The translations under genes were made by a program, and so were the position numbers. A stretch of 64,000 nt of DNA, from the NCBI GenBank assembly GCA_964019135.1, contig OZ025250.1, positions 46,841,174 to 46,905,173 on the forward strand, read 5' to 3'. The notes under the pieces were generated by a model, which saw nothing but the letters and a program-made list of their open reading frames with translations, had not been told where the DNA came from and did no database searches. Below, piece by piece: positions 1,765-64,000 of this stretch. Within the stretch, counting starts at the first letter, position 1, and each line of letters begins with the position of its first letter. Source of the DNA: Arenicola marina. Its lineage: Eukaryota; Annelida; Polychaeta; Arenicolidae.

Positions 1765-1770
1765 ACTATT

Positions 1771-7520: not shown

Positions 7521-7690
7521 CGATAATTGTATTGTTTTGTGAAAAATGTATTTATGTTCACTGTTATGTCCTATGTGCCTAAAGGCCTTCTTTGACAATT
7601 AAATAATTTTTCACGTTCTGCCCCTACTCTCCTTTTCCGTTTGCTGTGCTAGGTTCCTCCGTTGTTTCCTCCCTGTTTCCGGCCCTGTCA
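7521..7690. other. LINE 3' flank and T/C-rich spacer
   Basis: Non-coding sequence with no recognised feature. It may contain the LINE 3' UTR. Confidence 0.35.
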
Positions 7691-8720
7691 TACAAGTTAT
7701 TCCTGCTTAAAATAAACCAAATGCCCTTAATCGATACCAGTGGTTGCCAGTTACATAGCAATTGCGCAAATAGGATTTTTCTCTTGTATTTTTATTACAT
7801 CCAAATACAATGAAGAATAAGAAATGAACTTTATAATTTTAGTAAAAATCATCCACCATCATATGATCATATACTTGTTGCTGAAATGTCCTCCTGCCCC
7901 CCCCCCCCTAGCCACTACAAACGCCCGCCGCCACTACCAACCCCCGCCATTACCAACCCCCGCCGCCACTACCAGCCCCCGCCACTACCCAAACCCAGCC
8001 ACTACCAACCCCCGCCGCCGGTACCAACCCGCGCCGCCACTACCAAGCCCCGCCACCACTACCAACCCCCGCCGCCACTGCCAGCCTCGCCACTACCAAA
8101 CCCCGCCGCCTATACCAACCCCCACCGCTACTACAAACCCCCACCGTCACTACCAACCCCAACCGCCACTACCGGCCCCCACCACTACCAAACCCCGCCG
8201 CCACTACCAACCCCCGCCGCCACTACCAACCCCAATCGCCACTACCAACCCCCGCCGCCACTACCAGCCACGCCACTACCAAAGCCCGCCGCCACTAGCA
8301 ACTCCCGCCACAACTACCAACCCCACCGCCACTACCAGCCCCCGCCGCCACTACCAGCCACGCCACTACCAAAGCCCGCCGCCACTAGCAACTCCCGCCA
8401 CAACTACCAACCCCACCGCCACTACCAGCGCCCGCCACTACCAATCCCCGCCGCCACTAGCAACCACCGCCGCCACTACCAGCCCCCGCCACTACCAGCG
8501 CCCGCCACTACCAATCCCCGCCGCCACTAGCAACCACCGCCGCCACTACCAGCCCCCGCCACTGCCGACTCCCGCCACTACCAACCCCCACAATCTATGT
8601 AATAATATTTGTCGCAACAATTGAGCGTTTACTGAGTCAATTTCCTTTACTGATTGATTTGGATTCCGGATAATCAATATTCCAATATTCAGTACCAATA
8701 TTCCCGTTGTCTCCTGCTGC
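7690..8720. repeat. Dispersed repeat, copy 1 (related to 25740-26280)
   Basis: Both flanks of the inner array match the region at 25740-26280. Shared phrases are ATCCAAATACAATGAAGAAT (7799 and 25840), CACTACCAACCCCCACAAT (8576 and 25980) and a TTACTGAG...TTTACTG...GAT stretch (8627 and 26199). This is an old, low-identity interspersed family of unknown class. Copy 1 has a large minisatellite where copy 2 has one short motif. Confidence 0.6.
7904..8590. repeat. C-rich minisatellite of CCGCCGCCACTACCAACC type
   Basis: The array starts in a poly-C run and repeats a 15-21 bp motif (CCGCCACTACCAACCCC, CCACTACCAGCC) about 40 times. A block of roughly 100 bp (about 8220-8320) is duplicated next to itself, and a second smaller block near 8425-8560 is also doubled. 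It reads as Pro/Thr/Tyr-rich frames in two phases. It is not treated as a gene. Confidence 0.9.
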
Positions 8721-14729: not shown

Positions 14730-16157
14730 ATGCAGACCTTGAGAGACGAGCTCGTAACGTTTGGTGTCAAAATCCTGGCGCGATCAGACGTAAAGGAAGG
14801 TCGGCAGATAGCCAGAGGAGGGTTTGGCAGAGTCCTCAGTGGTACCATGAAAGCTGGTGAGTGTTAGATTAGAGTGTAGAGGATATAAGGCAATTATCTT
14901 ACTCATGTGCACTGTGGATTATATTGGCAATAATCATGTTCCATAACGCGGTAAATGTTGTCAAGAAAGCCTTAACCACGCCGTTAAATATCGCCCGAAT
15001 TCTCAACGGTTCATGCTAAGACCATGTTGCAGCGGTAAGACTCCATTGTTAATGTACAACTCTCCTTAAGGGTTACTAGTCAAAAAATGTCAGAACTTCA
15101 AGTCTACCAGGGCGCACCTGCCCCCGCCCCCCCCCCCCCCCATTCTCTCGCAACCGCATTTACCAAAGATTGTCCATTTTGTTTAATTTCAGGTCTTCAG
15201 TTTAGTAGCTGAGATAAATTATCCCAATGTGGCGCATGTTTTGTGTTGTTCACTTTAATATCAACGATATATTGGCATGACCATTTTCATTATATAAAAC
15301 AAATTTCTGATTTTGTTTTCTATTCAGATAATTCCAGAATCGTCATCAAGCGGATGTTGGATGACGATGCCGTTCAACCGCTTTGCAAAGAAATTAAGCT
15401 CATCAGTAAGACAGCCCACCCCAATATTGTTCGTCTTCGGGGAGTGTGTCTTGAACCTTTCAGTCTTGTTTTGGAATTTCTTGAGTTCAATCTTGACGAA
15501 ATGAAGATTCCTGAGACCGAGGGTTCTCGAGAAGGTAGCACTCTGGCGGAGTTGTTGAGTGTTCTAGCAGAAGCAGACCTTATTGAAGAAGTTGGAGTTA
15601 AGCGAGGGGTGCTGCGTAAGGCAGCATTGGACATTGCCATGGGTTTGGCTTTCCTTCACCACAAAGACATCTGCCACAGAGACCTAAAGCCGGCTAACGT
15701 TTTGGTTAGGAATTCCGGGGAGTTAGTTATTTTCAAGCTCGCAGACTTTGGTGAAGCCAGGGCAAGACACCTCCAAACCGCGTCTCTTCTGCACAGTGTA
15801 ACAGAGCATGTACAACGGGGAACAAGGGTGTTCTTCGCACCAGAACAGCTCCTGGAAACCCTGGCATCGGCAGACATCACAGCTTTAAAGTGCGTGGACA
15901 TTTGGTGTTACGGCATGATCGTATTTTGCCTACTCTCGCCTGATTATGAGTTTCCCTGGAAAAGAGAACTGAAAAGTCAGAATAATCTTGACAATGTGTT
16001 GACGGCAATGACCGCCAATAAATTACCCCGGGGTTCAGACAAGTACAAGCACCTGCCGGAGGACACAGGCCTGGGCGACGTACATACACAGTGCTGCAGG
16101 TTTGATCCGGCAGAAAGGCCTGTGATCGACGTGGTGTTGGAGCTGCTCTCCAAGTAA
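14730..16157 (+). CDS. Protein kinase, two 3' exons (TKL/Ser-Thr type)
   Basis: Exons 14730-14856 and 15328-16157. The intron has GTGAGT and a TATTCAG acceptor, and phase 1 is kept on both sides. The join gives about 319 residues with a complete kinase domain. The glycine loop is ARGGFGRV, the ATP-anchoring Lys is in VIKRM, the alpha-C Glu is in CKEIKLI, the catalytic loop is HRDLKPANVLV, and the metal site is ADFGEAR. The activation segment ends in FFAPEQ, and the C-lobe has VDIWCYGMIVF and RFDPAERP. All key catalytic residues are present, so it should be active. HRDLKPAN points to a Ser/Thr or dual-specificity enzyme, and HPNIVRLRGVC resembles TKL kinases. An acidic insert, about residues 90-125, lies between the hinge and alpha-E. 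ATG at 14730 directly follows an acceptor AG (GCGCCAG), so the true start may be in an upstream exon. The stop is at 16155. Confidence 0.85.
15118..15141. repeat. Poly-C run in the kinase intron
   Basis: A long C homopolymer interrupted once by G lies inside the intron between the two kinase exons. Similar C runs occur elsewhere in the window, for example near 8850, 21743, 23480, 25670, 32019, 32881, 35404 and 36630. Confidence 0.8.
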
Positions 16158-37955: not shown

Positions 37956-40900
37956 CGGGCACCCAACTCACTCCGCGTCTGCCGTCGGACGAAGAACGCC
38001 TGCTGGAACTACTTTTGGACGGTTACAATCCCTCCGCGCGTCCCGTGATCAACTCTTCACGAACCGTTGAAGTCTACATGCAGTTCTCCCTGCTGCAGAT
38101 ACAGGAACTGGTGAGCGATCTGGTTTCAACGGCGCTTTTAATGAACAAAAACCCGACTTCCCCGAGTTTATGCATCAAGTATATCTGCAGCGGCGGCCGC
38201 GACAGCCGTGGCCGTCATACCATAGAAAAAACAAAGTTCCTGGTGGATTATTTGTTATGAAAACAAGTTGCGTTTCTTTTCTCGACTAGTATATCGTCTA
38301 CAGCGAGACAAGGCAAAGGGGAAGTCATGCAAAACTAGCTCTGGTAATTACTGTCCTGGCCTCACTCTGACTGAAGTATGATCGATCTTGGCATATCGGA
38401 CATGCCTTTAGCAATAGCACGAATAAAAACTATATGATATGGAGTGCTTTTCGTCATCAGCAGAAGTTATTATGTTGATTATGTGTCGTATGTGAAGTGT
38501 GTTATGGAAGACCTTTCGTTCCAGAATCTACGGAATCAGGTTCTGACGACCACAGGACTCTTGATATTGGTCAGTAGCTCGACAATTTACCACTGCTGTT
38601 CCATATGTGTGCAGCGTCTTGCATCGCATATGTATTATATATATATGTATATATATATGAATGTATACGAATATATGTATATAATTATATTGATATATCG
38701 ATTATTGCTATTAATTATTCTAGTTTTTTCATCTGGTTATTAGACATAAAATCAGTATCATTCATGACAGCAATAATTTAGGATAGGGACAAACAGGTGT
38801 ATAACAATGCGGGTAGGCACGCCCCATTATAAGATTCATTGGCTTGGGCTACCATTCGATAACATATCCCACCATGACCGAGAAATGATGATTCCTGTTA
38901 GATATACCGTCTAAAGATTTTCAGATTGCAACGGCCCCCCCCCTTATAAAGTCTCATGCTCAACATAAAGATATCCCAACCGCTTCTCTTCCAATTTTCG
39001 TTTTTCTTCATTATATAACATGCGACCTCCTCCCCCCGTCCACCACATACTAACCCTTGCCTATCATCTCCTCGATCATTGCCTTTCCTAACATTGCCCC
39101 CTCCCCCACCTCCCCCCTGCCCCCTCCACCACATACTAACCCTTGCCCATCTTCTCCTTGATCGATGCCTCTCCTAACATGGCCCCCTCCCCCAGCCCTC
39201 CCCGATTAACCAGTATTGACTGAAGATGTCTTCACCCTGTGTGTGAGGGCTCCACTTGGCGCCCATTCAGTCCCCGCTGTTACACGTATCAGGGAGGATG
39301 TACGGGGCGATAGGGGCCCCGCGGTCACCATGGTGACGGGTGGGGCACAGATATCTGGTGAGCACCCGGTGCAGGCGCCCCCCCACCCCCCCGGCCTGTC
39401 GTTGGTGGCCGCCCCACAAACAATAAAGACGCGATGACAGAGGCCAGAGACATCTAGACAACTCCCAGACTGCATCACTAAATCTTCAAATCTGTGACTT
39501 GCCCTCTCCTCCCCCAACCCCTGCACCTCCCACCCCAGTCTGGGCGGGGTAACGGGGCGCCACCTAGCGATTGAAGCCACTTGGGGTCTCCATAACGGCG
39601 ACTCAGTTGATTTAAAGGGCGACAATGAGTTTGTGACTCGAGTCAAGAAGAAGAAACCCAGTTAAATTTAGACTGAACATTAGACTGATATGAGTGGGGT
39701 TGTCTGTTTGTACCTCTGAAGGAACCAGTGACTTCCTGTATGGTTGGGTAAAACAATGAGACTTTACTTCATTAAACGTGGACATCAAATCAAGAGATTG
39801 GCCTCAATTATGTCTGTGCAAGGCACTACATGTCCATGAGAGTCGTGTAACAACCGTTGAAAGGCCCAGACAACCGCTTGTGACAGCCGTGTAGACAGCT
39901 ATGTGACAGTCCTTGACACATTGCCAGCCGGGTTGACACTGACAGCCGGGTGACAATCGTTGATAGGCATTGACATCCGTAAACAGTCACGCACAGCCAC
40001 TGTTGGCCACCGTCTTGTATGACAGTCGTATTGACAGCCTTGTTAACACATCAGCTGACATTACTGGTGCGACGGCCCCTGACAGCCACTCATGTTACGC
40101 TGACAGTCATTTATACTCGCGTGACATCCGCTGACAGTCCTTGGCATCCGCTGACAGCAACTCCTACTCGCGTGAGAGACCCTGACAGCCAATGACAGCT
40201 GCTGACAACCGCTGACAGCCCTTGACGGCCGCTGACAGCCCCTGATGGCCGCTGACAGCCCATGACAGCCGCTGACAGCCCATGACAGCCGCTGACAGCC
40301 GTGTGCTTGTTTCCAGGAGTGGTACGACGAGCGGTTACAGTGGGACACCCGTCAGATCCCGCTCCACGACGTCGTCATCGAGGCCAGGAAACTATGGCGA
40401 CCCGAGTTCGCCTCCATCAACGGGTGAGTGTGCCCCCCCTGCTCTCCCCACCCACCCCCTGCCCTTCCCTACCACCCCTTCTCTACCAACCCTTCAAATA
40501 TTCGAGTCAGATACCGCTGCACGTTGCTCCTCCACAGCATCGCTGCCCAACCATAATTCGCGGAGAGTGGGTGATAATGTGGCCATCTAACGGCTGCATT
40601 TGCAAATCACACCCCATCCTCCCTCTCTCAACCCCCAACTCAGATATTGTGAACCCGATGTTAATTTGTATAATAGTCGTGTATTAGAGTGGTTCCCATA
40701 GCGACCTGCCAAGTCCTTATGGAGTCCCCCGGCCAAGCCGTATTGTGTGGTGTCTTGTGATGATCGGTTTACTGGGTCAAATCAACGGCATCTGAATCTA
40801 ACTCTTTGACAAAATTACCCCCGGCAAAAGCATGGCCACCGCCCCCTAACTATCTCCGCCACTGATCCAGGGCGGACGGTGACCATGATGACCTCCCTTT

Positions 40901-43513
40901 AACTGTCACCGCCACTGATCCAGGGCGGACGGTGACCATGGTGACCTCCCCTTAACTGTCTCCGCCACTGATCCAGGGCGGACGGTGACCATGGTGACCT
41001 CCCCTTAACTGTCTCCGCCACTGATCCAGGGCGGACGGTGACCATGGTGACCTCCCCATAACTGTCTCCGCCACTGACCCAGGGCGGACGGTGACCATGG
41101 TGACCTCCTCTTAACTGTCACCGCCACTGACCCGGGACGGACGGTAACCATGGTGACCTCCCCTTAACTGTCTCCGCCACTGACCCAGGACGGACGGTAA
41201 CCATGGTGACCGCCCCCCTGTCTCCCTCACTGCTCCAGAGCGGACGGTAACCATGGTGACCTCCCCCTAACTGTCTCGCCCACTGCTCCAGGGCGGACGG
41301 TGACCATGGTGACCTCCCCTAAACTGTCACCGCCACTGATCCATGGCGGACGGTGACCATGGTGGCCTCCCCTTAACTGTCTCCGCCACTGATCCAGGGC
41401 GGACGGTAACCATGGTGACCGCATCTTAACTGTCTCCGCCACTGACCCAGGGCGGACGGTGACCATGGTGACCTCCTCTTAACTGTCACCGCCACTGATC
41501 CAGGGCGGACGGTGACCATGGTGACATCACCCTAACTGTCTCCCCCACTGCTGCAGGGCTGATGGTATCTATGGCGACTACGGCCAGTTCCGTGCCATCA
41601 TCCAGCACACGGGTCTGATCCACTGGGAGCCGGGCGGCGTCTTCAAGACGGTCTGCGAGATCGACATCACCTACTACCCGTTCGACGAGCAGAGCTGCCG
41701 CCTCATCTTCGGCGCCTGGAGCTACCACACGACCAAGATGAACCTGACCAACATCGCCGACATCGTCAACCTCGACTCGTTCGAGGGTAACGGCGAGTGG
41801 GAGATCTTCAAGACGACCTCCATACGCGGGGAGTTCTTCTTCGAGTCCTCGCCCAGCGAGAAGTTCTCCAACGTCGAGTTCACTCTCTACCTCAAGCGGC
41901 GCTACACCTTCTACGTCATGAACGTCATCCTGCCCTCCCTCATGACGTCAGTCCTATTGTTGTCCATCTTCTTCTGCACGCCCGCCCAGAAGGTCCAGAT
42001 CGGTGTCGTCGTCCTGCTCTTCTTCAGGATTTTCCTGCTCAACGTCACCGACAGTATCCCGAAGACGTCCGATCACATCCCGCTCCTCGGTGAGTCACAC
42101 TGCATCCTCGCTCGGCGCTACCTGACTTGTACGATGGCCATCACCACGCTGTCCCCGCTCTGTGTTACAGGTATCTACCTGGCGTGTACGATGGCCATCA
42201 CCACGCTGTCCCCGCTCTGTGTTACAGGTATTTAGCTGCCATGTAGGATGGCCATCACCACGCTGTCCCCGCTCTGTGTTACAGGTATCTACCTGACGTG
42301 TACGATGGCCATCACCACGCTGTCCCCGCTCTGTGTTACAGGTATCTACCTGACGTGTACGATGGCCATCACCACGCTGTCGTCCCCGCTCTGTGTTACA
42401 GGTATCTACCTGACGTGTAGGATGGCCATCACCACGCTGTCCCCGCTCTGTGTTACAGGTATCTACCTGACGTGTACGATGGCCATCACCACGCTGTCCC
42501 CGCTCTGTGTTACAGGTATCTACCTGACGTGTACGATGGCCATCACCACGCTGTCCCCGCTCTGTGTTACAGGTATCTACCTGACGTGTACGATGGCCAT
42601 CACCTCGCTGTCGTCCCCGCTCTGTGTTACAGGTATCTACCTGACGTGTAGGATGGCTATCACCACGCTGTCCCCGCTCTGTGTTACAGGTATTTAGCTG
42701 CCATGTAGGATGGCCATCACCACGCTGTCCCCGCTCTGTGTTACAGGTATCTACCTGACGTGTACGATGGCCATCATCACGCTGTCCTCGCTCTGTGTTA
42801 CAGGTATCTACCTGACGTGTACGATGGCCATCACCACGCTGTCCATGGTGCTCACGGTCTTCGTCCTGAACCTGCACCACGTGTCCGACCGCCCGGTGCC
42901 GCGCTGGGCCAAGCGCCTCGTTCTGGTGTACGTCGCCCGCCTGCTGTGTATGTGCCAGTTCCAGAGCAAGATTCGCCAAGAGGAGGAGGAGCTACAGGAG
43001 CGGAAGAACCGCTACCGCGTCACCCCGCACAGCCTGGGCAAGGCCATCGGCAACCAGATCGGCCTGCTCGCCAACCTCAACGGGACCCTGGGCACCCCCG
43101 GGGGTGGTGGCGGCGCCGGGGGTGGTGGTGCCGGGGGCGGGGGCGGGGATGACAGCCCGCGGGAGGGGCGGGGGATGCGCGGGGTGGGGCGGGGGTACGG
43201 CGGAGGGTTCAACCGGCCGGGCACGCACTTCGCGAGCCACTACCAGTTCTCGTACGAGCAGCAGCAGGAGGAGGCGGCCGAGGCCATAGACCTGAAGCTC
43301 CAGGAGGAGGAGTGGTCGCGCGACTGGCGCCACCTGGCGGAGGTCATGGACCGCCTCTTCTTCTGGCTCTTCCTGTCCGCCATCGTCATCACCACGCTGC
43401 TGCTCTTCCACCCGCTCACCAAGGCCTACTTCTCCATCCTGGGCGACGAGGGCATCCTCAAGGGGGAGGAGCAGCCCCTCGCCCCCTCCTCGGCCCAGGG
43501 CGCCCTCACGTGA
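37956..43513 (+). CDS. Nicotinic acetylcholine receptor-like (Cys-loop) subunit, signal-peptide exon not found
   Basis: Exons are 37956-38110, 38525-38569 (45 bp), 40317-40423, 41557-42089 and 42804-43513. All have GT/AG and phases agree; about 516 residues. The 45-bp and about 110-bp exons match classic nAChR exons 3 and 4. Visible features are: DEERLLELLLDGYNPSARPV and SLLQIQEL; NLRNQVLTTTGLLIL; EWYDERLQWD; the Cys-loop C-EIDITYYPFDEQS-C with 13 residues between Cys; TM1 NVILPSLMTSVLLLSIFF; TM2 QKVQIGVVVLLFFRIFLLNV; the signature IPKTSDHIPLLG; TM3 IYLTCTMAITTLSMVLTVFV; a Gly-rich cytoplasmic loop; and TM4 DRLFFWLFLSAIVITTLLLF. The product is a plasma-membrane pentameric channel subunit. Oddities: the loop D Trp is Leu, the loop A Tyr is Ile, the loop C Cys pair is Ser-Ser, TM2 -1' Glu is Gln, and there is Arg at 12'. 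It is therefore a non-alpha or orphan subunit. Exon 1 must lie upstream. Confidence 0.9.
38625..38690. repeat. TA/TATG-rich microsatellite in a receptor intron
   Basis: An imperfect run of TATATATG and ATATATGTATAT words in the intron between the 45-bp exon and the next exon. Confidence 0.85.
39020..39200. repeat. Duplication of about 95 bp in a receptor intron
   Basis: CACCACATACTAACCCTTGCC followed by CATCNTCTCC and CCTAACATNGCCCCCTCC is present twice (about 39039 and 39126), with a few differences. (The first motif is CACCACATACTAACCCTTGC plus C.). Confidence 0.8.
39840..40310. repeat. CTGACAGCC-type array upstream of the 40317 exon
   Basis: An irregular short repeat of GCTGACAGCC and variants (TTGACAGCC, CATGACAGCC), most regular in the last 120 bp, ends six bases before a short T-rich acceptor (GTGTGCTTGTTTCCAG). 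Each CTGAC also matches the animal branch-point consensus. Confidence 0.85.
40424..40831. other. 5' part of the fourth visible receptor intron
   Basis: Begins with a strong GTGAGTG donor followed by C-rich sequence. No other feature was recognised before the 53-bp array. Confidence 0.6.
40832..41556. repeat. 53-bp minisatellite copying the acceptor and start of the 41557 exon
   Basis: About 13 copies of a unit reading CCTTAACTGTCTCCGCC, ACTGATCCAG, then GGCGGACGGTGACCATGGTG. The unit contains a branch-point-like TTAAC, a pyrimidine tract and CAG. The bases after CAG resemble the true exon start GGCTGATGGTATCTATGGCG (about 20 of 31 aligned bases agree around the junction). The true acceptor (CCTAACTGTCTCCCCCACTG then CTGCAG) is the last, diverged member of the series. 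Confidence 0.9.
42110..42803. repeat. 57-bp minisatellite copying the acceptor and start of the 42804 exon
   Basis: About 13 copies (57 bp, two of 60 bp) of the true exon start GTATCTACCTGACGTGTACG, then ATGGCCATCACCACGCTGTC, then CCCGCTCTGTGTTACAG. Every copy carries an AG acceptor followed by codons for GIYLTCTMAITTLS, the beginning of TM3. The whole 714-bp intron from the donor at 42090 is essentially this array, and its length is a multiple of three. Two copies (starting about 42228 and 42690) have GTATTTAG, which puts a stop codon in the receptor frame. Confidence 0.95.
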
Positions 43514-44767: not shown

Positions 44768-47700
44768 TCAAGACTGTCCGTGTAACACTGATCCACGACT
44801 GTCCGTGTAACACTGATCCACGACTGTCCGTGTAACACTGATCCACGACTGTCCGTGTAACACTGATCCACGACTGTCCGTGTAACACTGATCCACGACT
44901 GTCTGTGTAACGCTGATCCACGGCTGTCCGTGTAACACTGATCCACGACTGTCCGTGTAACACTGATCCACGACTGTCCGTGTAACACTGATCCACGACT
45001 GTCCGTGTAACACTGATCCACGACTGTCCGTGTAACACTGATCCACGACTGTCCGTGTAACACTGATCCACGACTGTCCGTGTAACACTGATCCACGACT
45101 GTCCGTGTAACACTGATCCACGGCTGTTCGTGTAACACTGATCCACGACTGTCCGTGTAACACTGATCCACGACTCTCCGTGTAACACTGATCCACGACT
45201 GTCCGTGTAACACTGATCCACGACTGTCAGTGTAACACTGATCCACGGCTGTCCGTGTAACACTGATCCACGACTGTCCGTGTAACACTGATCCACGACT
45301 GTCCGTGTAACACTGATCCACGACTGTCCGTGTAACACTGATCCACGACTGTCCGTGTAACACTGATCCACGACTGTCCGTGTAACACTGATCCACGACT
45401 GTCCGTGTAACACTGATCCACGACTGTCCGTGTAACACTGATCCACGGCTGTCCGTGTAACACTGATCCACAACTGTCCGTGTAACACTGATCCACGACC
45501 GTCCGTGTAACACTGATCCACGACTGTCCGTGTAACACTGATCCACGACTGTCCGTGTAACACTGATCCACGACTGTCCGTGTAACACTGATCCACGACT
45601 GTCCGTGTAACACTGATCCACGACTGTCAGTGTAACACTGATCCACGACTGTCAGTGTAACACTGATCCACGACTGTCCGTGTAACACTGATCCACGACT
45701 GTCCGTGTAACACTGATCCACGACTGTCCGTGTAACACTGATCCTCGACTGTCCGTGTAACACTGATCCACGACTGTCCGTGTAACACTGATCCACGGCT
45801 GTCCGTGTAACACTGATCCACGACTGTCCGTGTAACACTGATCCACGACTGTCCGTGTGACACTGATCCACGGCTGTCCGTGTAACACTGATCCACGACT
45901 GTCCGTGTAACACTGATCCACGACTGTCCGTGTAACACTGATCCACGGCTGTCCGTGTAACACTGATCCACGACTGTCCGTGTAACACTGATCCACGACT
46001 GTCCGTGTAACACTGATCCACGACTGTCCGTGTGACACTGATCCACGGCTGTCCGTGTAACACTGATCCACGACTGTCCGTGTAACACTGATCCACGACT
46101 GTCCGTGTAACACTGATCCACGGCTGTCCGTGTAACACTGATCCACGACTGTCCGTGTAACACTGATCCACGACTGTCCGTGTGACACTGATCCACGGCT
46201 GTCGGCGTAACACTGATCCACGACTGTTCGTGTAACACTGATCCACGACTGTCCGTGTAACACTGATCCACGACTGTCCGTGTAACACTGATCCACGACT
46301 GTCAGTGTAACACTGATCCACGACTGTCCGTGTAACACTGATCCACGACTGTCCGTGTAACACTGATCCACGACTGTCCGTGTAACACTGATCCACGACT
46401 GTCCGTGTAACACTGATCCACGACTGTCCGTGTAACACTGATCCGCGATTGTCCGTGTAACACTGATCCGCGACTGTCAGTGTAACACGGATCCACGACT
46501 GTCCGTGTAACGCTGATCCACGACTGTCCGTGTATCGCTGATCCACGACTGTCCGTGTAACACTGATCCACGACTGTCCGTGTGACACTGATCCACGACT
46601 GTCCGTGTAACGCTGATCCACGACTGTCCGTGTATCGCTGATCCACTACTGTCCGTGTAACACTGATCCACGACTGTCCGTGTAACACTGATCCACGACT
46701 GTCCGTGTAACACTGATCCACGACTGTCCGTGTAACACTGATCCACGACTGTCCGTGTAACACTGATCCACGACTGTCCGTGTGACACTGATCCACGACT
46801 GTCAGTGTAACACTGATCCACGGCTGTCCGTGTAACACTGATCCACGACTGTCCGTGTAACACTGATCCACGAATGTCCGTGTAACACTGATCCACGACT
46901 GTCCGTGTAACACTGATCCACGACTGTCCGTGTAACACTGATCCACGACTGTCCGTGTAACACTGATCCACGACTGTCCGTGTAACACTGATCCACGACT
47001 GTCCGTGTAACACTGATCCACGGCTGTCCGTGTAACACTGATCCACAACTGTCCGTGTAACACTGATCCACGACCGTCCGTGTAACACTGATCCACGACT
47101 GTCCGTGTAACACTGATCCACGACTGTCCGTGTAACACTGATCCACGACTGTCCGTGTAACACTGATCCACGACTGTCCGTGTAACACTGATCCACGACT
47201 GTCAGTGTAACACTGATCCACGACTGTCAGTGTAACACTGATCCACGACTGTCCGTGTAACACTGATCCACGACTGTCCGTGTAACACTGATCCACGACT
47301 GTCCGTGTAACACTGATCCACGACTGTCCGTGTAACACTGATCCACGACTGTCCGTGTAACACTGATCCACGGCTGTCCGTGTAACACTGATCCACGACT
47401 GTCCGTGTAACACTGATCCACGACTGTCCGTGTGACACTGATCCACGGCTGTCCGTGTAACACTGATCCACGACTGTCCGTGTAACACTGATCCACGACT
47501 GTCCGTGTAACACTGATCCACGGCTGTCCGTGTAACACTGATCCACGACTGTCCGTGTAACACTGATCCACGACTGTCCGTGTAACACTGATCCACGACT
47601 GTCCGTGTGACACTGATCCACGGCTGTCCGTGTAACACTGATCCACGACTGTCCGTGTAACACTGATCCACGACTGTCCGTGTAACACTGATCCACGGCT

Positions 47701-49352
47701 GTCCGTGTAACACTGATCCACGACTGTCCGTGTAACACTGATCCACGACTGTCCGTGTGACACTGATCCACGGCTGTCGGCGTAACACTGATCCACGACT
47801 GTTCGTGTAACACTGATCCACGACTGTCCGTGTAACACTGATCCACGACTGTCCGTGTAACACTGATCCACGACTGTCAGTGTAACACTGATCCACGACT
47901 GTCCGTGTAACACTGATCCACGACTGTCCGTGTAACACTGATCCACGACTGTCCGTGTAACACTGATCCACGACTGTCCGTGTAACACTGATCCACGACT
48001 GTCCGTGTAACACTGATCCGCGATTGTCCGTGTAACACTGATCCGCGACTGTCAGTGTAACACGGATCCACGACTGTCCGTGTAACGCTGATCCACGACT
48101 GTCCGTGTATCGCTGATCCACGACTGTCCGTGTAACACTGATCCACGACTGTCCGTGTAACACTGATCCACGACTGTCCGTGTAACACTGATCCACGACT
48201 GTCCGTGTAACACTGATCCACGACTGTCCGTGTGACACTGATCCACGGCTGTCCGTGTAACACTGATCCACGACTGTCCGTGTAACACTGATCCACGACT
48301 GTCCGTGTAACACTGATCCACGACTGTCCGTGTAACACTGATCCACGACTGTCAGTGTAACACTGATCCACGACTGTCCGTGTAACACTGATCCACGACT
48401 GTCCGTGTAACACTGATCCACGACTGTCCGTGTAACACTGATCTACGACTGTCCGTGTAACACTGATCCACGACTGTCCGTGTAACACTGATCCACGACT
48501 GTCCGTGTAACACTGATCCACGACTGTCAGTGTAACACTGATCCACGACTGTCCGTGTAACACTGATCCACGGCTGTCCGTGTAACACTGATCCACGACT
48601 GTCCGTGTAACACTGATCCACGACTGTCCGTGTAACACTGATCCACGACTGTCCGTGTAACACTGATCCACGACTGTCCGTGTAACACTGATCCACGACT
48701 GTCAGTGTAACACTGATCCACGACTGTCCGTGTAACACTGATCCACGGCTGTCCGTGTAACACTGATCCACGACTGTCCGTGTAACACTGATCCACGACT
48801 GTCCGTGTAACACTGATCCACGACTGTCCGTGTAACACTGATCCACGACTGTCCGTGTAACACTGATCCACGACTGTCCGTGTAACACTGATCCACGACT
48901 GTCGGTGTAACACTGATCCACGACTGTCGGTGTAACACTGATCCACGGTGGTCCGTGTAACACTGATCCACGACTGTCCGTGTAACACTGATCCACGACT
49001 GTCCGTGTAACACTGATCCACGACTGTCCGTGTAACACTGATCCACGACTGTCCGTGTAACACTGATCCACGACTGTCTGTGTAACACTGATCCACGACT
49101 GTCAGTGTAACACTGATCCACGACTGTCTGTGTAACACTGATCCACGACTGTCCGTGTAACACTGATCCACGACTGTCCGTGTAACACTGATCCACGACT
49201 GTCCGTGTAACACTGATCCACGACTGTCCGTGTAACACTGATCCACGACTGTCCGTGTAACACTGATCCACGACTGTCCGTGTAACACTGATCCACGACT
49301 GTCCGTGTAACACTGATCCACGACTGTCCGTGTAACACTGATCCACGACTTT
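44768..49352. repeat. 4.6-kb minisatellite, 25-bp unit, about 183 copies
   Basis: The unit is GACTGTCCGTGTAACACTGA plus TCCAC, exceptionally homogeneous. Marker variants (GTCGGCGTAAC, GTTCGTG, GATCCGCGATTG, TGTATCGCTG) recur with a 1575-bp period, for example GTCGGCG at 46201 and 47776. Minus-strand frames of up to 539 codons occur because three units make 75 bp; they overlap in all phases and are not genes. Confidence 0.97.
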
Positions 49353-51982: not shown

Positions 51983-54900
51983 CATGATGCGGTATTGGCA
52001 GACAGGGACAGCATCATCAGCCCCATCGATGGCACTGTAGGTGTCCTCAGCATGATGCAGTGTTGGCAGACAGGGACAGCATCATCAGCCCCATCGATGG
52101 CACTGTAGGTGTCCTCAGCATGATGCAGTGTTGGTAGACAGGGACAGCATCATCAGCCCCATCGATGGCACTGTAGGTGTCCTCAGCATGATGCAGTGTT
52201 GGCGGACAGGGACAGCATCATCAGCCCCATCGATGTCACTGTAGGTGTCCTCAGCATGATGCAGTGTTGGCAGACAGGGACAGCATCATCAGCCCCATTG
52301 ATGGCACTGTAGGTGTCCTCAGCATGATGCAGTGTTAACAGACAGGGACAGCATCATCAGCCCCATTGATGGCACTGTAGGTGTCCTCAGCATGATGCAG
52401 TGTTGGTAGACAGGGACAGCATCATCAGCCCCATCGATGGCACTGTAGGTGTCCTCAGCATGATGCAGTGTTGGCAGACAGGGACAGCATCATCAGCCCC
52501 ATCGATGGCACTGTAGGTGTCCTCAGCATGATGCAGTGTTGGCAGACAGTGACAGCATCATCAGACCCATCGATGGCACTGTAGGTGTCCTCAGCATGAT
52601 GCAGTGTTGGCAGACAGGGACAACATCATCAGCCCCATCGATGGCACTGTAGGTGTCCTCAGCATGATGCAGTGTTGGCAGACAGGGACAGCATCATCAG
52701 CCCCATCGATGGCACTGTAGGTGTCCTCAGCATGATGCAGTGTTGGCAGACAGTGACAGCATCATCAGACCCATCGATGGCACTGTAGGTGTCCTCAGCA
52801 TGATGCAGTGTTGGCAGACAGGGACAGCATCATCAGCCCCATTGATGGCACTGTAGGTGTCCTCAGCATGATGCAGTGTTGGTAGACAGGGACAGCATCA
52901 TCAGCCCCATCGATGGCACTGTAGGTGTCCTCAGCATGATGCAGTGTTGGCAGACAGGGACAGCATCATCAGCCCCATCGATGGCACTGTAGGTGTCCTC
53001 AGCATGATGCAGTGTTGGCAGACAGTGACAGCATCATCAGACCCATCGATGGCACTGTAGGTGTCCTCAGCATGATGCAGTGTTGGCAGACAGGGACAAC
53101 ATCATCAGCCCCATCGATGGCACTGTAGGTGTCCTCAGCATGATGCAGTGTTGGCAGACAGGGACAGCATCATCAGCCCCATCGATGGCACTGTAGGTGT
53201 CCTCAGCATGATGCAGTGTTGGCAGACAGTGACAGCATCATCAGACCCATCGATGGCACTGTAGGTGTCCTCAGCATGATGCAGTGTTGGCAGACAGGGA
53301 CAACATCATCAGCCCCATCGATGGCACTGTAGGTGTCCTCAGCATGATGCAGTGTTGGCAGACAGGGACAGCATCATCAGCCCCATCGATGGCACTGTAG
53401 GTGTCCTCAGCATGATGCAGTGTTGGCAGACAGGGACAGCATCATCAGCCCCATCGATGGCACTGTAGGTGTCCTCAGCATGATGCAGTGTTGGTAGACA
53501 GGGACAGTATCATCAGCCCCATTGATGGCACTGTAGGTGTCCTCAGCATGATGCAGTGTTGGTAGACAGGGACAGCATCATCAGCCCCATCGATGGCACT
53601 GTAGGTGTCCTCAGCATGTTGCAGTGTTGGTAGACAGGGACAGCATCATCAGCCCCATTGATGGCACTGTAGGTGTCCTCAGCATGATGCAGTGTTGGCA
53701 GACAGGGACACCATCATCAGCCCCATCGATGGCACTGTAGGTGTCCTCAGCATGATGCAGTGTTGGCAGACAGGGACAGCATCATCAGCCCCATCGATGG
53801 CACTGTAGGTGTCCTCAGCATGATGCAGTGTTGGTAGACAGGGACAGCATCATTAGCCCCATTGATGGCACTGTAGGTGTCCTCAGCATGATGCAGTGTT
53901 GGCAGACAGGGACAGCATCATCAGCCCCATCGATGGCTCTGTAGGTGTCCTCAGCATGATGCAGTGTTGGCAGACAGGGACAGCATCATCAGCCCCATCG
54001 ATGGCACTGTAGGTGTCCTCAGCATGATGCAGTGTTGGTAGACAGGGACAGCATCATCAGCCCCATCGATGGCACTGTAGGTGTCCTCAGCATGATGCAG
54101 TGTTGGCAGACAGGGACAGCATCATCAGCCCCACCGATGGCACTGTACGCGTCCTCAGCATGATGCAGTGTTGGTAGACAGGGACAGCATCATCAGCCCC
54201 ATCGATGGCACTGTAGGTGTCCTCAGCATGATGCAGTGTTGGTAGACAGGGACAGCATCATCAGCCCCATCGATGGCACTGTAGGTGTCCTCAGCATGAT
54301 GCAGTGTTGGCAGACAGGGACAGCATCATCAGCCCCATCGATGGCACTGTAGGTGTCCTCAGCATGATGCAGTGTTGGCAGACAGGGACAGCATCATCAG
54401 CCCCATCGATGGCACTGTAGGTGTCCTCAGCATGATGCAGTGTTGGCAGACAGGGACAGCATCATCAGCCCCATCGATGGCACTGTAGGTGTGCTCAGCG
54501 TGATGCAGTGTTGGCAGACAGGGACAGCATCATCAGCCCCATCGATGGCACTGTAGGTGTCCTCAGCATGATGCAGTGTTGCAGAGAGGGACAGCATCAT
54601 CAGCCCCATCGACGGCACTGTAGGTGTCCTCAGCATGATGCAGTGTTGGCAGACAGGGACAGCATCATCAGCCCCGTCGATGGCACTGTAGGTGTCCTCA
54701 GCATGATGCGGTGTTGGTAGACAGGGACAGCATCATCAGCCCCATCGATGGCACTGTAGGTGTCCTCAGCATGATGCAGTGTTGGCAGACAGGGACAGCA
54801 TCATCAGCCCCATCGATGGCACTGTAGGTGTCCTCAGCATGATGCAGTGTTGGCAGACAGGGACAGTATCATCAGCCCCATCGATGGCACTGTAGGTGTC

Positions 54901-57900
54901 CTCAGCATGATGCAGTGTTGGCAGACAGGGACAGCATCATCAGCCCCATCGATGGCACTGTAGGTGTCCTCAGCATGATGCAGTGTTGGCAGACAGGGAC
55001 AGCATCATCAGCCCCATCGATGGCACTGTAGGTGTGCTCAGCGTGATGCAGTGTTGGCAGACAGGGACAGCATCATCAGCCCCATCGATGGCACTGTAGG
55101 TGTCCTCAGCATGATGCAGTGTTGGCAGACAGGGACAGCATCATCAGCCCCATCGATGGCACTGTAGGTGTCCTCAGCATGATGCGGTGTTGGTAGACAG
55201 GGACAGCATCATCAGCCCCATCGATGGCACTGTAGGTATCCTCAGCATGATGCAGTGTTGGTAGACAGGGACAGCATCATCAGCCCCATCGATGGCACTG
55301 TAGGCGTCCTCAGCATGATGCAGTGTTGGCAGACAGGGACAGCATCATCAGCCCCATCGATGGCACTGTAGGTGTCCTCAGCATGATGCAGTGTTGGCAG
55401 ACAGGGACAGCATCATCAGCCCCATCGATGGCACTGTAGGTGTGCTCAGCGTGATGCAGTGTTGGCAGACAGGGACAGCATCATCAGCCCCATCGATGGC
55501 ACTGTAGGTGTCCTCAGCATGATGCAGTGTTGGCAGACAGGGACAGCATCATCAGCCCCATCGATGGCACTGTAGGTGTCCTCAGCATGATGCGGTGTTG
55601 GTAGACAGGGACAGCATCATCAGCCCCATCGATGGCACTGTAGGTATCCTCAGCATGATGCAGTGTTGGTAGACAGGGACAGCATCATCAGCCCCATCGA
55701 TGGCACTGTAGGCGTCCTCAGCATGATGCAGTGTTGGCAGACAGGGACAGCATCATCAGCCCCATCGATGGCACTGTAGGCGTCCTCAGCATGATGCAGT
55801 GTTGGCAGACAGGGACAGCATCATCAGCCCCATCGATGGCACTGTAGGTGTCCTCAGCATGATGCAGTGTTGGCAGACAGGGACAGCATCATCAGCCCTA
55901 TCGATGGCACTGTAGGTGTCCTCAGCATGATGCAGTGTTGGCAGACAGGGACACCATCATCAGCCCCATCGATGGCACTGTAGGCGTCCTCAGCATGATG
56001 CAGTGTTGGCAGAGAGGGACACCATCATCAGCCCCATCGATGGCACTGAAGGTGTCCTCAGCATGATGCGGTGTTGGCAGACAGGGACAGCATCATCAGC
56101 CCTATCGATGGCACTGTAGGTGTCCTCAGCATGATGCAGTGTTGGCTGACAGGGACAGCATCATCAGCCCCATCGATGGCTCTGTAGGTGTCCTCAGCAT
56201 GATGCAGTGTTGGCAGACAGGGCCAGCATCATCAGCCCCATCGATGGCACTGTAGGTGTCCTCAGCATGATGCAGTGTTGGCAGACAGGGACAGCATCAT
56301 CAGCCCAATCAATGGCACTGTAGGTGTCCTCAGCATGATGCAGTGTTGGCAGACAGGGACAGCATCATCAGCCCCATCGATGGCACTGTAGGTGTCCTCA
56401 GCATGATGCAGTGTTGGCTGACAGGGACAGCATCATCAGCCCCATCGATGGCACTGTAGGTGTCCTCAGCACGATGCAGTGTTGGCAGACAGGGACAGCA
56501 TCATCAGCCCCATCGATGGCACTGTAGGTGTCCTCAGCACGATGCAGTGTTGGCAGACAGGGACAGCATCATCAGCCCCATCGATGGCACTGTAGGTGTC
56601 CTCAGCATGATGCAGTGTTGGTAGACAGGGACAGTATCATCAGCCCCATCGATGGCACTGTAGGTGTCCTCAGCATGATGCACTGTTGGTAGACAGAGAC
56701 AGCATCATCAGCCCCATCGATGGCACTGTAGGTGTCCTCAGCATGATGCAGTGTTGGCAGACAGGGACAGCATCATCAGCCCCATCGATGGCACTGTAGG
56801 TGTCCTCAGCATGATGCAGTGTTGGTAGACAGGGACAGTATCATCAGCCCCATCGATGGCACTGTAGGTGTCCTCAGCATGATGCAGTGTTGGTAGACAG
56901 GGACAGCATCATCAGCCCCATCGATGGCACTGTAGGTGTCCTCAGCATGATGCAGTGTTGGCAGACAGGGACAGCATCATCAGCCCCATCGATGGCACTG
57001 TAGGTGTCCCCAGCATGATGCAGTGTTGGTAGACAGGGACAGTATCATCAGCCCCATCGATGGCACTGTAGGTGTCCTCAGCATGATGCAGTGTTGGTAG
57101 ACAGGGACAGCATCATCAGCCCCATCGATGGCACTGTAGGTGTCCTCAGCATGATGCAGTGTTGGCAGACAGGGACAGCATCATCAGCCCCATCGATGGC
57201 ACTGTAGGTGTCCTCAGCATGATGTAGTGTTGGTAGACAGGGACAGCATCATCAGCCCCATCGATGGCACTGTAGGTGTCCTCAGCATGATGCAGTGTTG
57301 GCAGACAGGGACAGCATCATCAGCCCCATCGATGGCACTGTAGGTGTCCTCAGCATGATGCAGTGTTGGTAGACAGGGACAGTATCATCAGCCCCATCGA
57401 TGGCACTGTAGGTGTCCTCAGCATGATGCAGTGTTGGTAGACAGGGACAGCGTCATCAGCCCCATCGATGGCACTGTAGGTGTCCTCAGCATGATGCGGT
57501 GTTGGTAGACAGGGACAGCATCATCAGCCCCATCGATGGCACTGTAGGTGTCCTCAGCATGATGCAGTGTTGGCAGACAGGGACAGCATCATCAGCCCCA
57601 TCGATGGCACTGTAGGTGTCCTCAGCATGATGCAGTGTTGGTAGACAGGGACAGTATCATCAGCCCCATCGATGGCACTGTAGGTGTCCTCAGCATGATG
57701 CAGTGTTGGCAGACAGGGACAGCATCATCAGCCCCATCGATGGCACTGTAGGTGTCCTCAGCATGATGCAGTGTTGGCAGACAGGGACAGCATCATCAGC
57801 CCCATCGATGGCACTGTAGGTGTGCTCAGCGTGATGCAGTGTTGGCAGACAGGGACAGCATCATCAGCCCCATCGATGGCACTGTAGGTGTCCTCAGCAT

Positions 57901-60900
57901 GATGCAGTGTTGCAGAGAGGGACAGCATCATCAGCCCCATCGACGGCACTGTAGGTGTCCTCAGCATGATGCAGTGTTGGCAGACAGGGACAGCATCATC
58001 AGCCCCATCGATGGCACTGTAGATGTCCTCAGCATGATGCGGTGTTGGTAGACAGGGACAGCATCATCAGCCCCATCGATGGCACTGTAGGTATCCTCAG
58101 CATGATGCAGTGTTGGTAGACAGGGACAGCATCATCAGCCCCATCGATGGCACTGTAGGCGTCCTCAGCATGATGCAGTGTTGGCAGACAGGGACAGCAT
58201 CATCAGCCCCATCGATGGCACTGTAGGCGTCCTCAGCATGATGCAGTGTTGGCAGACAGGGACAGCATCATCAGCCCCATCGATGGCACTGTAGGCGTCC
58301 TCAGCATAATGCAGTGTTGGCAGACATGGACAGCATCATCAGCCCCATCGATGGCACTGTAGGTGTCCTCAGCATGATGCAGTGTTGGCAGACAGGGACA
58401 CCATCATCAGCCCCGTCGATGGCACTGTAGGCGTCCTCAGCATGATGCAGTGTTGGCAGACAGGGACACCATCATCAGCCCCATCGATGGCACTGTAGGT
58501 GTCCTCAGCATGATGCGGTGTTGGCAGACAGGGACAGCATCATCAGCCCTATCGATGGCACTGTAGGTGTCCTCAGCATGATGCAGTGTTGGCTGACAGG
58601 GACAGCATCATCAGCCCCATCGATGGCTCTGTAGGTGTCCTCAGCATGATGCAGTGTTGGCAGACAGGGCCAGCATCATCAGCCCCATCGATGGCACTGT
58701 AGGTGTCCTCAGCATGATGCAGTGTTGGCAGACAGGGACAGCATCATCAGCCCCATCAATGGCACTGTAGGTGTCCTCAGCATGATGCAGTGTTGGCAGA
58801 CAGGGACAGCATCATCAGCCCCATCGATGGCACTGTAGGTGTCCTCAGCATGATGCAGTGTTGGCTGACAGGGACAGCATCATCAGCCCCATCGATGGCA
58901 CTGTAGGTGTCCTCAGCACGATGCAGTGTTGGCAGACAGGGACAGCATCATCAGCCCCATCGATGGCACTGTAGGTGTCCTCAGCACGATGCAGTGTTGG
59001 CAGACAGGGAGAGCATCATCAGCCCCATCGATGGCACTGTAGGTGTCCTCAGCATGATGCAGTGTTGGTAGACAGGGACAGTATCATCAGCCCCATCGAT
59101 GGCACTGTAGGTGTCCTCAGCATGATGCAGTGTTGGTAGACAGGGACAGCATCATCAGCCCCATCGATGGCACTGTAGGTGTCCTCAGCATGATGCAGTG
59201 TTGGCAGACAGGGACAGCATCATCAGCCCCATCGATGGCACTGTAGGTGTCCTCAGCATGATGCAGTGTTGGTAGACAGGGACAGTATCATCAGCCCCAT
59301 CGATGGCACTGTAGGTGTCCTCAGCATGATGCAGTGTTGGTAGACAGGGACAGCATCATCAGCCCCATCGATGGCACTGTAGGTGTCCTCAGCATGATGC
59401 AGTGTTGGCAGACAGGGACAGCATCATCAGCCCCATCGATGGCACTGTAGGTGTCCTCAGCATGATGCAGTGTTGGTAGACAGGGACAGTATCATCAGCC
59501 CCATCGATGGCACTGTAGGTGTCCTCAGCATGATGCAGTGTTGGTAGACAGGGACAGCATCATCAGCCCCATCGATGGCACTGTAGGTGTCCTCAGCATG
59601 ATGCAGTGTTGGCAGACAGGGACAGCATCATCAGCCCCATCGATGGCACTGTAGGTGTCCTCAGCATGATGTAGTGTTGGTAGACAGGGACAGCATCATC
59701 AGCCCCATCGATGGCACTGTAGGTGTCCTCAGCATGATGCAGTGTTGGCAGACAGGGACAGCATCATCAGCCCCATCGATGGCACTGTAGGTGTCCTCAG
59801 CATGATGCAGTGTTGGTAGACAGGGACAGTATCATCAGCCCCATCGATGGCACTGTAGGTGTCCTCAGCATGATGCAGTGTTGGCAGACAGGGACAGCAT
59901 CATCAGCCCCATCGATGGCACTGTAGGTGTCCTCAGCATGATGCAGTGTTGGTAGACAGGGACAGTATCATCAGCCCCATCGATGGCACTGTAGGTGTCC
60001 TCAGCATGATGCAGTGTTGGCAGACAGGGACAGCATCATCAGCCCCATCGATGGCACTGTAGGTGTCCTCAGCATGATGCAGTGTTGGTAGACACGGACA
60101 GTATCATCAGCCCCATCGATGGCACTGTAGGTGTCCTCAGCATGATGCAGTGTTGGTAGACAGGGACAGCATCATCAGCCCCATCGATGGCACTGTAGGT
60201 GTCCTCAGCATGATGCAGTGTTGGCAGACAGGGACAGCATCATCAGCCCCATCGATGGCACTGTAGGTGTCCTCAGCATGATGCAGTGTTGGCAGACAGT
60301 GACAGCATCATCAGCCCCATCGATGGCACTGTAGGTGTCCTCAGCATGATGCAGTGTTGACAGACAGGGACAGCATCATCAGCCCCATCGATGGCACTGT
60401 AGGTGTCCTCAGCATGATGCAGTGTTGGTAGACAGGGACAGCATCATCAGCCCCATCGATGGCACTGTAGGTGTCCTCAGCATGATGCAGTGTTGGCAGA
60501 CAGGGACAGCATCATCAGCCCCATCGATGGCACTGTAGGTGTCCTCAGCATGATGCAGTGTTGGCAGACAGGGACAGCATCATCAGCCCCATCGATGGCA
60601 CTGTAGGTGTCCTCAGCATGATGCAGTGTTGGTAGACAGGGACAGCATCATCAGCCCCATCGATGGCACTGTAGGTGTCCTCAGCATGATGCAGTGTTGG
60701 TAGACAGGGACAGCATCATCAGCCCCATCGATGGCACTGTAGGTGTCCTCAGCATGATGCAGTGTTGGCAGACAGGGACAGCATCATCAGCCCCATCGAT
60801 GGCACTGTAGGTGTCCTCAGCATGATGCAGTGTTGGCAGACAGGGACAGCATCATCAGCCCCATCGATGGCACTGTAGGTGTCCTCAGCATGATGCAGTG

Positions 60901-63900
60901 TTGGTAGACAGGGAGAGCATCATCAGCCCCATCGATGGCACTGTAGGTGTCCTCAGCATGATGCAGTGTTGGTAGACAGGGACAGCATCATCAGCCCCAT
61001 CGATGGCACTGTAGGTGTCCTCAGCATGATGCAGTGTTGGCAGACAGGGACAGCATCATCAGCCCCATCGATGGCACTGTAGGTGTCCTCAGCATGATGC
61101 AGTGTTGGCAGACAGGGACAGCATCATCAGCCCCATCGATGGCACTGTAGGTGTCCTCAGCATGATGCAGTGTTGGTAGACAGGGACAGCATCATCAGCC
61201 CCATCGATGGCACTGTAGGTGTCCTCAGCATGATGCAGTGTTGGCAGACAGGGACAGCATCATCAGCCCCATCGATGGCACTGTAGGTGTCCTCAGCATG
61301 ATGCAGTGTTGACAGACAGGGACAGCATCATCAGTCCCATCGATGGCACTGTAGGTGTCTTCAGCATGATGCAGTGTTGGCAGACAGGGACAGCATCATC
61401 AGTCCCATCGATGGCACTGTAGGTGTCCTCAGCATGATGCAGTGTTGGCAGACAGGGACAGCATCATCAGCCCCATCGATGGCACTGTAGGTGTCCTCAG
61501 CATGATGCAGTGTTGGTAGACAGGGACAGCATCATCAGCCCCATCGATGGCACTGTAGGTGTCCTCAGCATGATGCAGTGTTGGTAGACAGGGACAGCAT
61601 CATCAGCCCCATCGATGGCACTGTAGGTGTCCTCAGCATGATGCAGTGTTGGCAGACAGGGACAGCATCATCAGCCCCATCGATGGCACTGTAGGTGTCC
61701 TCAGCATGATGCAGTGTTGGTAGACAGGGACAGTATCATCAGCCCCATCGATGGCACTGTAGGTGTCCTCAGCATGATGCAGTGTTGGTAGACAGGGACA
61801 GCATCATCAGCCCCATCGATGGCACTGTAGGTGTCCTCAGCATGATGCAGTGTTGGCAGACAGGGACAGCATCATCAGCCCCATCGATGGCACTGTAGGT
61901 GTCCTCAGCATGATGTAGTGTTGGTAGACAGGGACAGCATCATCAGCCCCATCGATGGCACTGTAGGTGTCCTCAGCATGATGCAGTGTTGGCAGACAGG
62001 GACAGCATCATCAGCCCCATCGATGGCACTGTAGGTGTCCTCAGCATGATGCAGTGTTGGTAGACAGGGACAGTATCATCAGCCCCATCGATGGCACTGT
62101 AGGTGTCCTCAGCATGATGCAGTGTTGGTAGACAGGGACAGCATCATCAGCCCCATCGATGGCACTGTAGGTGTCCTCAGCATGATGCAGTGTTGGCAGA
62201 CAGGGACAGCATCATCAGCCCCATCGATGGCACTGTAGGTGTCCTCAGCATGATGCAGTGTTGGTAGACACGGACAGTATCATCAGCCCCATCGATGGCA
62301 CTGTAGGTGTCCTCAGCATGATGCAGTGTTGGTAGACAGGGACAGCATCATCAGCCCCATCGATGGCACTGTAGGTGTCCTCAGCATGATGCAGTGTTGA
62401 CAGACAGGGACAGCATCATCAGCCCCATCGATGGCACTGTAGGTGTCCTCAGCATGATGCAGTGTTGGTAGACAGGGACAGCATCATCAGCCCCATCGAT
62501 GGCACTGTAGGTGTCCTCAGCATGATGCAGTGTTGGCAGACAGGGACAGCATCATCAGCCCCATCGATGGCACTGTAGGTGTCCTCAGCATGATGCAGTG
62601 TTGGCAGACAGGGACAGCATCATCAGCCCCATCGATGGCACTGTAGGTGTCCTCAGCATGATGCAGTGTTGGTAGACAGGGACAGCATCATCAGCCCCAT
62701 CGATGGCACTGTAGGTGTCCTCAGCATGATGCAGTGTTGGTAGACAGGGACAGCATCATCAGCCCCATCGATGGCACTGTAGGTGTCCTCAGCATGATGC
62801 AGTGTTGGCAGACAGGGACAGCATCATCAGCCCCATCGATGGCACTGTAGGTGTCCTCAGCATGATGCAGTGTTGGCAGACAGGGACAGCATCATCAGCC
62901 CCATCGATGGCACTGTAGGTGTCCTCAGCATGATGCAGTGTTGGTAGACAGGGACAGCATCATCAGCCCCATCGATGGCACTGTAGGTGTCCTCAGCATG
63001 ATGCAGTGTTGGTAGACAGGGACAGCATCATCAGCCCCATCGATGGCACTGTAGGTGTCCTCAGCATGATGCAGTGTTGGCAGACAGGGACAGCATCATC
63101 AGCCCCATCGATGGCACTGTAGGTGTCCTCAGCATGATGCAGTGTTGGCAGACAGGGACAGCATCATCAGCCCCATCGATGGCACTGTAGGTGTCCTCAG
63201 CATGATGCAGTGTTGGTAGACAGGGACAGCATCATCAGCCCCATCGATGGCACTGTAGGTGTCCTCAGCATGATGCAGTGTTGGCAGACAGGGACAGCAT
63301 CATCAGCCCCATCGATGGCACTGTAGGTGTCCTCAGCATGATGCAGTGTTGACAGACAGGGTCAGCATCATCAGTCCCATCGATGGCACTGTAGGTGTCC
63401 TCAGCATGATGCAGTGTTGGCAGACAGGGACAGCATCATCAGTCCCATCGATGGCACTGTAGGTGTCCTCAGCATGATGCAGTGTTGGCAGACAGGGACA
63501 GCATCATCAGTCCCATCGATGGCACTGTAGGTGTCCTCAGCATGATGCAGTGTTGGCAGACAGGGACAGCATCATCAGCCCCATCGATGGCACTGTAGGT
63601 GTCCTCAGCATGATGCAGTGTTGGTAGACAAGCACAGCATCATCAGCCCCATCGATGGCACTGTAGGTGTCCTCAGCATGATGCAGTGTTGACAGACAGT
63701 GACAGCATCATCAGCCCCATCGATGGCACTGTAGGTGTCCTCAGCATGATGCAGTGTTGACAGACAGGGACAGCATCATCAGCCCCATCGATGGCACTGT
63801 AGGCGTCCTCAGCATGATGCAGTGTTGGCAGACAGGGACAGCATCATCAGCCCCATCGATGCCACTGTAGGTGTCCTCAGCATGATGCAGTGTTGGCAGA

Positions 63901-64000
63901 CAGGGACAGCATCATCAGCCCCATCGATGGCACTGTAGGTGTCCTCAGCATGATGCAGTGTTGGTAGACAGGGACAGCATCATCAGCCCCATCGATGGCT
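51983..64000. repeat. 12-kb minisatellite, 68-bp unit, about 177 copies, continues past the window
   Basis: The unit begins TGATGCAGTGTTGGCAGACA and continues GGGACAGCATCATCAGCCCC, ATCGATGGCACTGTAGGTGT and CCTCAGCA. Units are nearly identical, with single-base markers (GGTAGACA, CAGTATCATC, GTGCTCAGCG, CAGTCCCATC). Marker patterns repeat with long periods: 2176 bp (32 units), 2040 bp and 3331 bp (49 units less one base). No frame longer than about 70 codons is open. Confidence 0.97.

Follow-up and report, generated by a model that had tools for sequence, protein, structure and literature searches.

An intron built largely of copies of the splice site that ends it raises two questions: how such a structure comes about, and whether the copies take part in splicing or simply leave with the intron. 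The intron considered here lies at 42090-42803 of the window, as we call the whole 64-kb stretch of DNA that was analysed, which belongs to an 867-Mb, 762-contig assembly of the annelid Arenicola marina. An earlier note on this DNA had described the intron as filled by a minisatellite that copies the next exon's own acceptor, and this description holds for most of its length, where one truncated unit and 11 full units of 57 or 60 bp follow the first 28 nt. We conclude, with a probability of roughly 0.85, that an old intron acquired this array over its 3′ splice site, as a minisatellite of the type called a mirage, and that the array is passive and spliced out.

The receptor gene and its exon boundaries

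The host gene is read from the plus strand. An upstream exon (40317..40424, donor GTGAGT at 40425) matches the ligand-binding domain PF02931 with E 2.3e-4 and 21.1 bits, under the curated cut-off of 26, while the exon at 41557..42089, which covers the end of the ligand-binding domain, TM1 and TM2, matches PF02931 with E 6e-23 and nicotinic receptor chains in the PDB with a best E of 1.7e-34. It is followed by the phase-1 TM2-TM3 intron of 714 nt (42090..42803), with donor GTGAGT at 42090 and the real acceptor, TTACAG, ending at 42803. The real TM3 exon (42804..43513) continues through TM4 to a stop codon at 43511-43513, as its translation indicates, and matches PF02932 with E 1.8e-15; profile search also gave a sub-cut-off PF02932 match (E 4e-4) upstream of the intron. 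Judged by its predicted protein, the gene carrying this intron is thus a nicotinic-type (acetylcholine) receptor gene, and the matches to PF02931, PF02932 and PDB nicotinic chains bear out the neurotransmitter receptor that had been proposed.

The boundary between the TM2 and TM3 exons was set by homology, from the PF02931 and PF02932 matches together with the paralogues L009, L010 and L028, in which a phase-1 intron occupies the same position (L numbers denote other loci of the same genome). With homology on both sides and the intron shared by these paralogues, the boundary stays where it had originally been placed. Across the whole genome, PF02931 gave at least 154 matches, counted per exon rather than per gene and with 150 of 403 candidates scored, which indicates a large expansion of predicted receptors with the Cys-loop ligand-binding domain.

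Elsewhere in the window, 68-bp and 25-bp arrays occupy 51983-63999 and 44772-49350, respectively; 56% of the sampled window positions have local copies, and the 10 kb just upstream of the window (L011) are 99% repeated with 71% G+C. An uninterrupted protein kinase reading frame lies at 15213-16154 (PF00069, E 1.2e-30), with no array over its ends at the positions tested, and the window gave no Rfam match at the gathering threshold.

Anatomy of the 57-bp array

The array starts, on the plus strand, with a truncated unit (42118..42170) that ends in the first decoy acceptor, and continues with 11 full units (42171..42803). Nine of these measure 57 bp and two 60 bp, and they hold ten further decoys and the real acceptor. 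Each full unit joins the opening 41 nt of the TM3 exon to the final 16 nt of the intron, so that two traits of a mirage minisatellite, tandem repetition at minisatellite unit size and units that span an exon/intron boundary, are present. The real TM3 exon is the last member of the series, as had been claimed, since the acceptor at 42803 ends the array. The count of about 13 acceptors before the true one requires correction: TTACAG occurs 12 times in the intron, giving 11 decoys and the real acceptor, and CTCTGTGTTACAG is present in all 12 copies. Each unit had further been said to repeat the exact opening of the exon, which is accurate as to near-identity, with 36-41 of the 41 exonic positions in the 11 full units identical to the real exon, but not as to exactness, the 20-mer GTATCTACCTGACGTGTACG from the exon opening recurring unchanged in only six of the 11 full intronic units.

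Chance is excluded as the source of this likeness, because 300 dinucleotide shuffles of the intron gave a best match to the boundary window of 26 of 40 nt, whereas the real intron contains 11 windows at 34 of 40 or above, the best reaching 39 of 40. When the unit was used to search its own genome at the DNA level, at least 16 matches were returned, 12 in the array and the other four confined to the exon part (query positions 1-41 or 1-39). TRF detected a higher-order period of 231 bp within the array, and the two units that carry the same in-frame TAG (GTATTTAGC), at 42228..42284 and at 42690..42746, the latter with one more intronic unit between it and the real exon, stand 462 bp apart.

Repeats are error-prone in assembly, runs of N occur in five of the 20 loci surveyed below and in L012, and the accessible text of PMC3087553 reports an amphioxus globin mirage that was misassembled in a draft genome, all of which could point to a wrong repeat number or even a spurious array. 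We nonetheless consider such an artefact very unlikely, given that the units show scattered differences with a 231-bp period, that genes on other contigs have similar arrays at exon boundaries of their own, and that the array itself is free of N.

Origin of the array

A phase-1 intron stands at the same place in L009, L010, L022, L028 and L030, and in three of these (L010, L028 and L030) neither edge of the intron has copies, which argues that the array was added to an intron already in existence. It is extremely improbable, by contrast, that the intron was itself born from tandem duplication, by the AGGT route that has been proposed for amphioxus globins (PMC3087553) and the tandem duplication supported for a potato gene (PMC4974935), as far as the accessible text of each goes. 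On that account, relatives without the duplication should also be without the intron, and L010, L028 and L030 keep it free of copies at the same phase-1 place; the real donor of the TM2-TM3 intron, moreover, lies outside the array.

For a minisatellite arising within an old intron, a simple course of events would suffice. A stretch with the intron's last 16 nt and the TM3 exon's first 41 nt would have undergone head-to-tail duplication, with a short intron/exon homology, CTGTCC, as its possible site. The unit joins exon sequence ending in CTGTCC to intron sequence CCGCTCTGTGTTACAG, and the end of the L009 intron likewise contains CTGTCC, which suggests duplication at short homology. Slippage or unequal exchange may then have multiplied and partly homogenised the units, as the 231-bp period suggests, and this period together with the twin TAG units 462 bp apart fits exchange between units. 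Copies on the intron side would leave with the intron if the 3′-most acceptor is used, and the protein would remain unchanged; the array would need no function and would be tolerated because splicing removes it. It would be one case among the minisatellites that crowd the sampled introns, which in some genes run over an exon edge. What we infer here is how the DNA was multiplied, in which direction copying went and that the mRNA uses the last acceptor; the near-identity of units and exon counts in favour of a minisatellite.

At the third positions of the first 14 TM3 codons, the comparison of the window gene with L010 gave 10/11, against 11/21 in the rest, too little data to speak of conservation; the L009 rows for the preceding 40 codons were out of frame and were left out.

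The same gene carries a second boundary array on the plus strand (40831..41566), with 13 units, mostly of 53 bp, whose starts run from 40871 to 41504. It loosely copies the acceptor and the start of the exon at 41557, with AG retained in 11 of the 13 units and ten copies at 30 of 40 nt or more. The 53-bp unit consensus agrees with the exon at 17 of 27 positions, and, being more diverged, this array is probably older than the 57-bp one.

Decoy acceptors, reading frame and donors

All 11 decoys share the TTACAG core and are locally hard to tell from the real acceptor, and with units of 57 or 60 nt their use would keep the frame, the last of them (42747) reading cleanly into the TM3 exon with 19 additional amino acids. 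The array might be a functional set of splice sites, in which the use of decoys at some rate would lengthen the TM2-TM3 loop of the receptor by 19 aa or yield non-productive transcripts that tune expression. However, reading from ten of the 11 decoys runs into an in-frame TAG ahead of the TM3 exon, the TAG in the 42690-42746 unit closing the frame for every acceptor at that unit or farther upstream; the paralogues do without the array; and, in the survey described below, boundaries are not enriched for copies and, of the six other arrays whose unit length is clear, four are out of frame. We regard a function of this kind as unlikely.

The array of L017 is open save for one TAA, which likewise falls in the last intronic unit but one (reverse complement, unit start at oriented position 6813, 0-based). 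Stops placed alike in the two arrays would truncate the products of farther decoys, which could hint at selection and is possibly a coincidence. In an elaborated form, the decoys would make up a tuned ladder, the stop-bearing unit sending farther-decoy products to decay, receptors being made with and without the 19-aa insert, and their ratio following the repeat number; we think this quite unlikely, and if true it would mean that the receptor ratio at the TM2-TM3 gating loop varies between individuals. On motif grounds, each unit may also supply the branch point of the next, as CTGAC, which we take to be a branch-point motif, lies with its A at -46 or -49 before nine of the 12 acceptors, including the real one.

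Another suggestion of the earlier note was recursive removal through GTATCT, each AG|GTAT(C/T)T junction acting as acceptor and then as donor while the intron is removed stepwise. Every one of the 12 unit junctions does read CAG|GTAT, the unit donors reach the 96th percentile when ranked among the window's GT sites and are thus weak rather than absent, and human UBC, in the accessible text of PMC10809524, uses tandem dual-specific AGGT sites. Against this, the unit donors GTAT(C/T)T score 1.52 bits, compared with 4.77 bits for the real donor (human-type matrix), the junctions of the L017 array read AG|GCC and provide no donor, and AG|GT also occurs in paralogues without the array. The AG|GT at the junctions is explained by the phase-1 intron, which splits an old glycine codon after its first G, and an intron of 714 nt at full length would need no stepwise removal. 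Recursive splicing is unsupported at this locus, and we find it very improbable.

Boundary copies across receptor genes

The survey comprised 23 receptor genes, namely 20 loci, the best-scoring 20 of 60 picked by exon coverage with repeats ignored, and three preselected genes, the window gene, L009 and L010, of which L009 and L010 had been found by matching the unit. Homology and splice consensus served to place the boundaries, and a boundary was scored as having copies when the 40 nt round it recurred within 4 kb with at least 30 of 40 matches and 13 of 20 on each side. In total, 52 boundaries were counted; L014 TM2 was left out, as its reading frame runs on and there is hence no boundary, and the donors of L019 and L022 were placed at the first copy after inspection.

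Local copies were found at nine of the 52 boundaries, in eight of the 23 genes and at both acceptors and donors; without the three preselected genes, the figures are five of 40 boundaries and five of 20 genes. Intron positions taken 60-2500 nt upstream of the ligand-domain acceptor had copies in 240 of 1087 cases (210/980 for the 20 loci alone). With the window set aside, random positions in the remaining 22 loci had copies in 288 of 1320 cases, and exon interiors of the full set had them in none of 257 (0/231 for the 20 loci alone). Splice boundaries are thus not enriched over intron positions (p 0.49 for the 52 boundaries, p 0.23 for the 20 loci) and differ from exon interiors (p 6e-8 for 23 genes, p 6e-5 for 20 loci), these p values being rough because positions inside one gene are not independent. 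Such arrays are neither limited to the window gene nor enriched at exon boundaries, which are not special, since minisatellites are dense in the sampled introns and some overrun an exon edge. At TM3 acceptors copies occur in four of 13, a larger share than at other boundaries, with small numbers and two of the four genes preselected.

Acceptor-type copies were seen in L017 (54 bp, 13 copies, junction AG|GCC), L025 (about 37 bp, two copies), L009 (two copies, 327 and 865 nt upstream) and L026 (one weak copy), and donor-type copies in L019 (65/68 bp), L022 (42 bp) and L010 (49 bp); where arrays were inspected by eye, it is the intron side that holds the copies. Six arrays besides that of the TM2-TM3 intron have a clear unit length, which is a multiple of three in two of them (54 and 42) and not in the other four (53, 49, 65/68 and 37), as expected without selection on frame, and selection for such units is unsupported in this set. 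L009 also carries, on the minus strand at 7655-7711 and about 2.8 kb beyond its TM3 exon start, a reverse-oriented copy of the acceptor and TM3 exon start, with CACTCCC-type repeats.

Taken together, boundary copies in eight of 23 genes at a rate not above that of introns count in favour of the array as a by-product. Four observations count against a passive array: the unit length is divisible by three and most of the array is open, which also applies to L017; both arrays carry a stop in the last intronic unit but one; the unit donors, though weak, outrank 96% of the GT sites in the window; and copies occur at four of the 13 TM3 acceptors.

Outside the receptor family, none of six loci (L033-L035, L037, L038 and L043, covering myosin, globin and linker) had copies that overlapped either end of the coding stretch that was matched. 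In L035, a 17-bp array of 88 copies (1708-3210) begins a few bases inside the intron at a myosin exon donor and is just short of a mirage. A muscle-type myosin gene (G000:C4:367768-384767, minus strand) has four matches at profile positions of about 110-154 and four at about 590-640, as if its sequence held sets of alternative exons. For one muscle-myosin exon the best matches are 3i5f and, next, the 1dfk group, presumably squid and scallop, ahead of human myosin-7; the neighbouring exon has human myosin-7 as its top match and does not discriminate. Contig 14 holds extracellular globin exons that match globin 2 of 1x9f, which we take to be Lumbricus (E 5e-23), and globin A of 22jw (E 4e-24), with the erythrocruorin linker family PF16915 near one globin exon (E 1.6e-20); linkers of this sort are characteristic of annelids. 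The extracellular globins, the linker and the first of the two myosin exons point to an annelid and not to amphioxus; a GFP-family search gave no match, which does not show absence. From two further globins the matches were weak and mixed, including a neural haemoglobin, presumably nemertean, at E 2e-4 to 7e-4.

Comparison with known systems

Amphioxus mirage minisatellites, which the earlier note had offered as a precedent, are an apt one according to the accessible text of PMC3087553 and PMC3902484. They occur in Adh3 and in two globin genes, BflGb6 and BflGb9, and reportedly leave regular splicing undisturbed (PMC3087553, in part), while similar repeats are carried by PGBD5, with troponin C also mentioned (PMC3902484, in part). 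The window array resembles them in its tandem units lying over an exon/intron boundary, at acceptor or donor, and in units that contain splice signals (PMC3087553, PMC3902484). Amphioxus mirages differ in length between haplotypes (PMC3087553, PMC3902484), the BflGb6 mirage having six and three units in two haplotypes (PMC3087553), whereas the window array is known from one assembly. Unlike amphioxus, a cephalochordate, the present host is an annelid, and its 11 decoy acceptors fill most of the intron.

Human UBC, as portrayed in the accessible text of PMC10809524, shares with the window array a series of identical AG|GT unit borders and a unit that is a multiple of three; its units are coding, however, and their use is shown by RNA, whereas the window units are intronic and their donors weak. 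Intron gain by AGGT duplication likewise involves tandem duplication round AG|GT in the accessible text of PMC3087553 and PMC4974935, but the window intron predates its array. Among annelids, earthworm metallothionein genes have minisatellites filling their first introns and also contain duplicates of the fourth exon that the transcript lacks, and the accessible text of PMC12783039 describes no splice-site-spanning units there. In C. elegans, a minisatellite lies near alternative splicing (PMC4039745, in part). No boundary-spanning minisatellite outside cephalochordates was found in the literature searched, as far as its text was accessible and with few subscription journals covered.

Since its host is an annelid and not a cephalochordate, the window array is, by analogy, a structure of the mirage kind in another phylum. 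The phenomenon would thus extend from cephalochordates to an annelid, where it appears at a notable frequency among the genes surveyed, in eight of 23 receptor genes and in five of the 20 that were picked regardless of repeats. It also poses a hazard for annotation, as gene finders may mistake a decoy for the true acceptor or donor, so that in-frame repeats end up in ion-channel models. While the origin of the array holds little mystery, its near-identical competing acceptors form a rare natural set: twelve acceptors with the same core and nearly the same exon starts, within one intron, offer a clean natural test of the role of position in 3′ splice-site choice.
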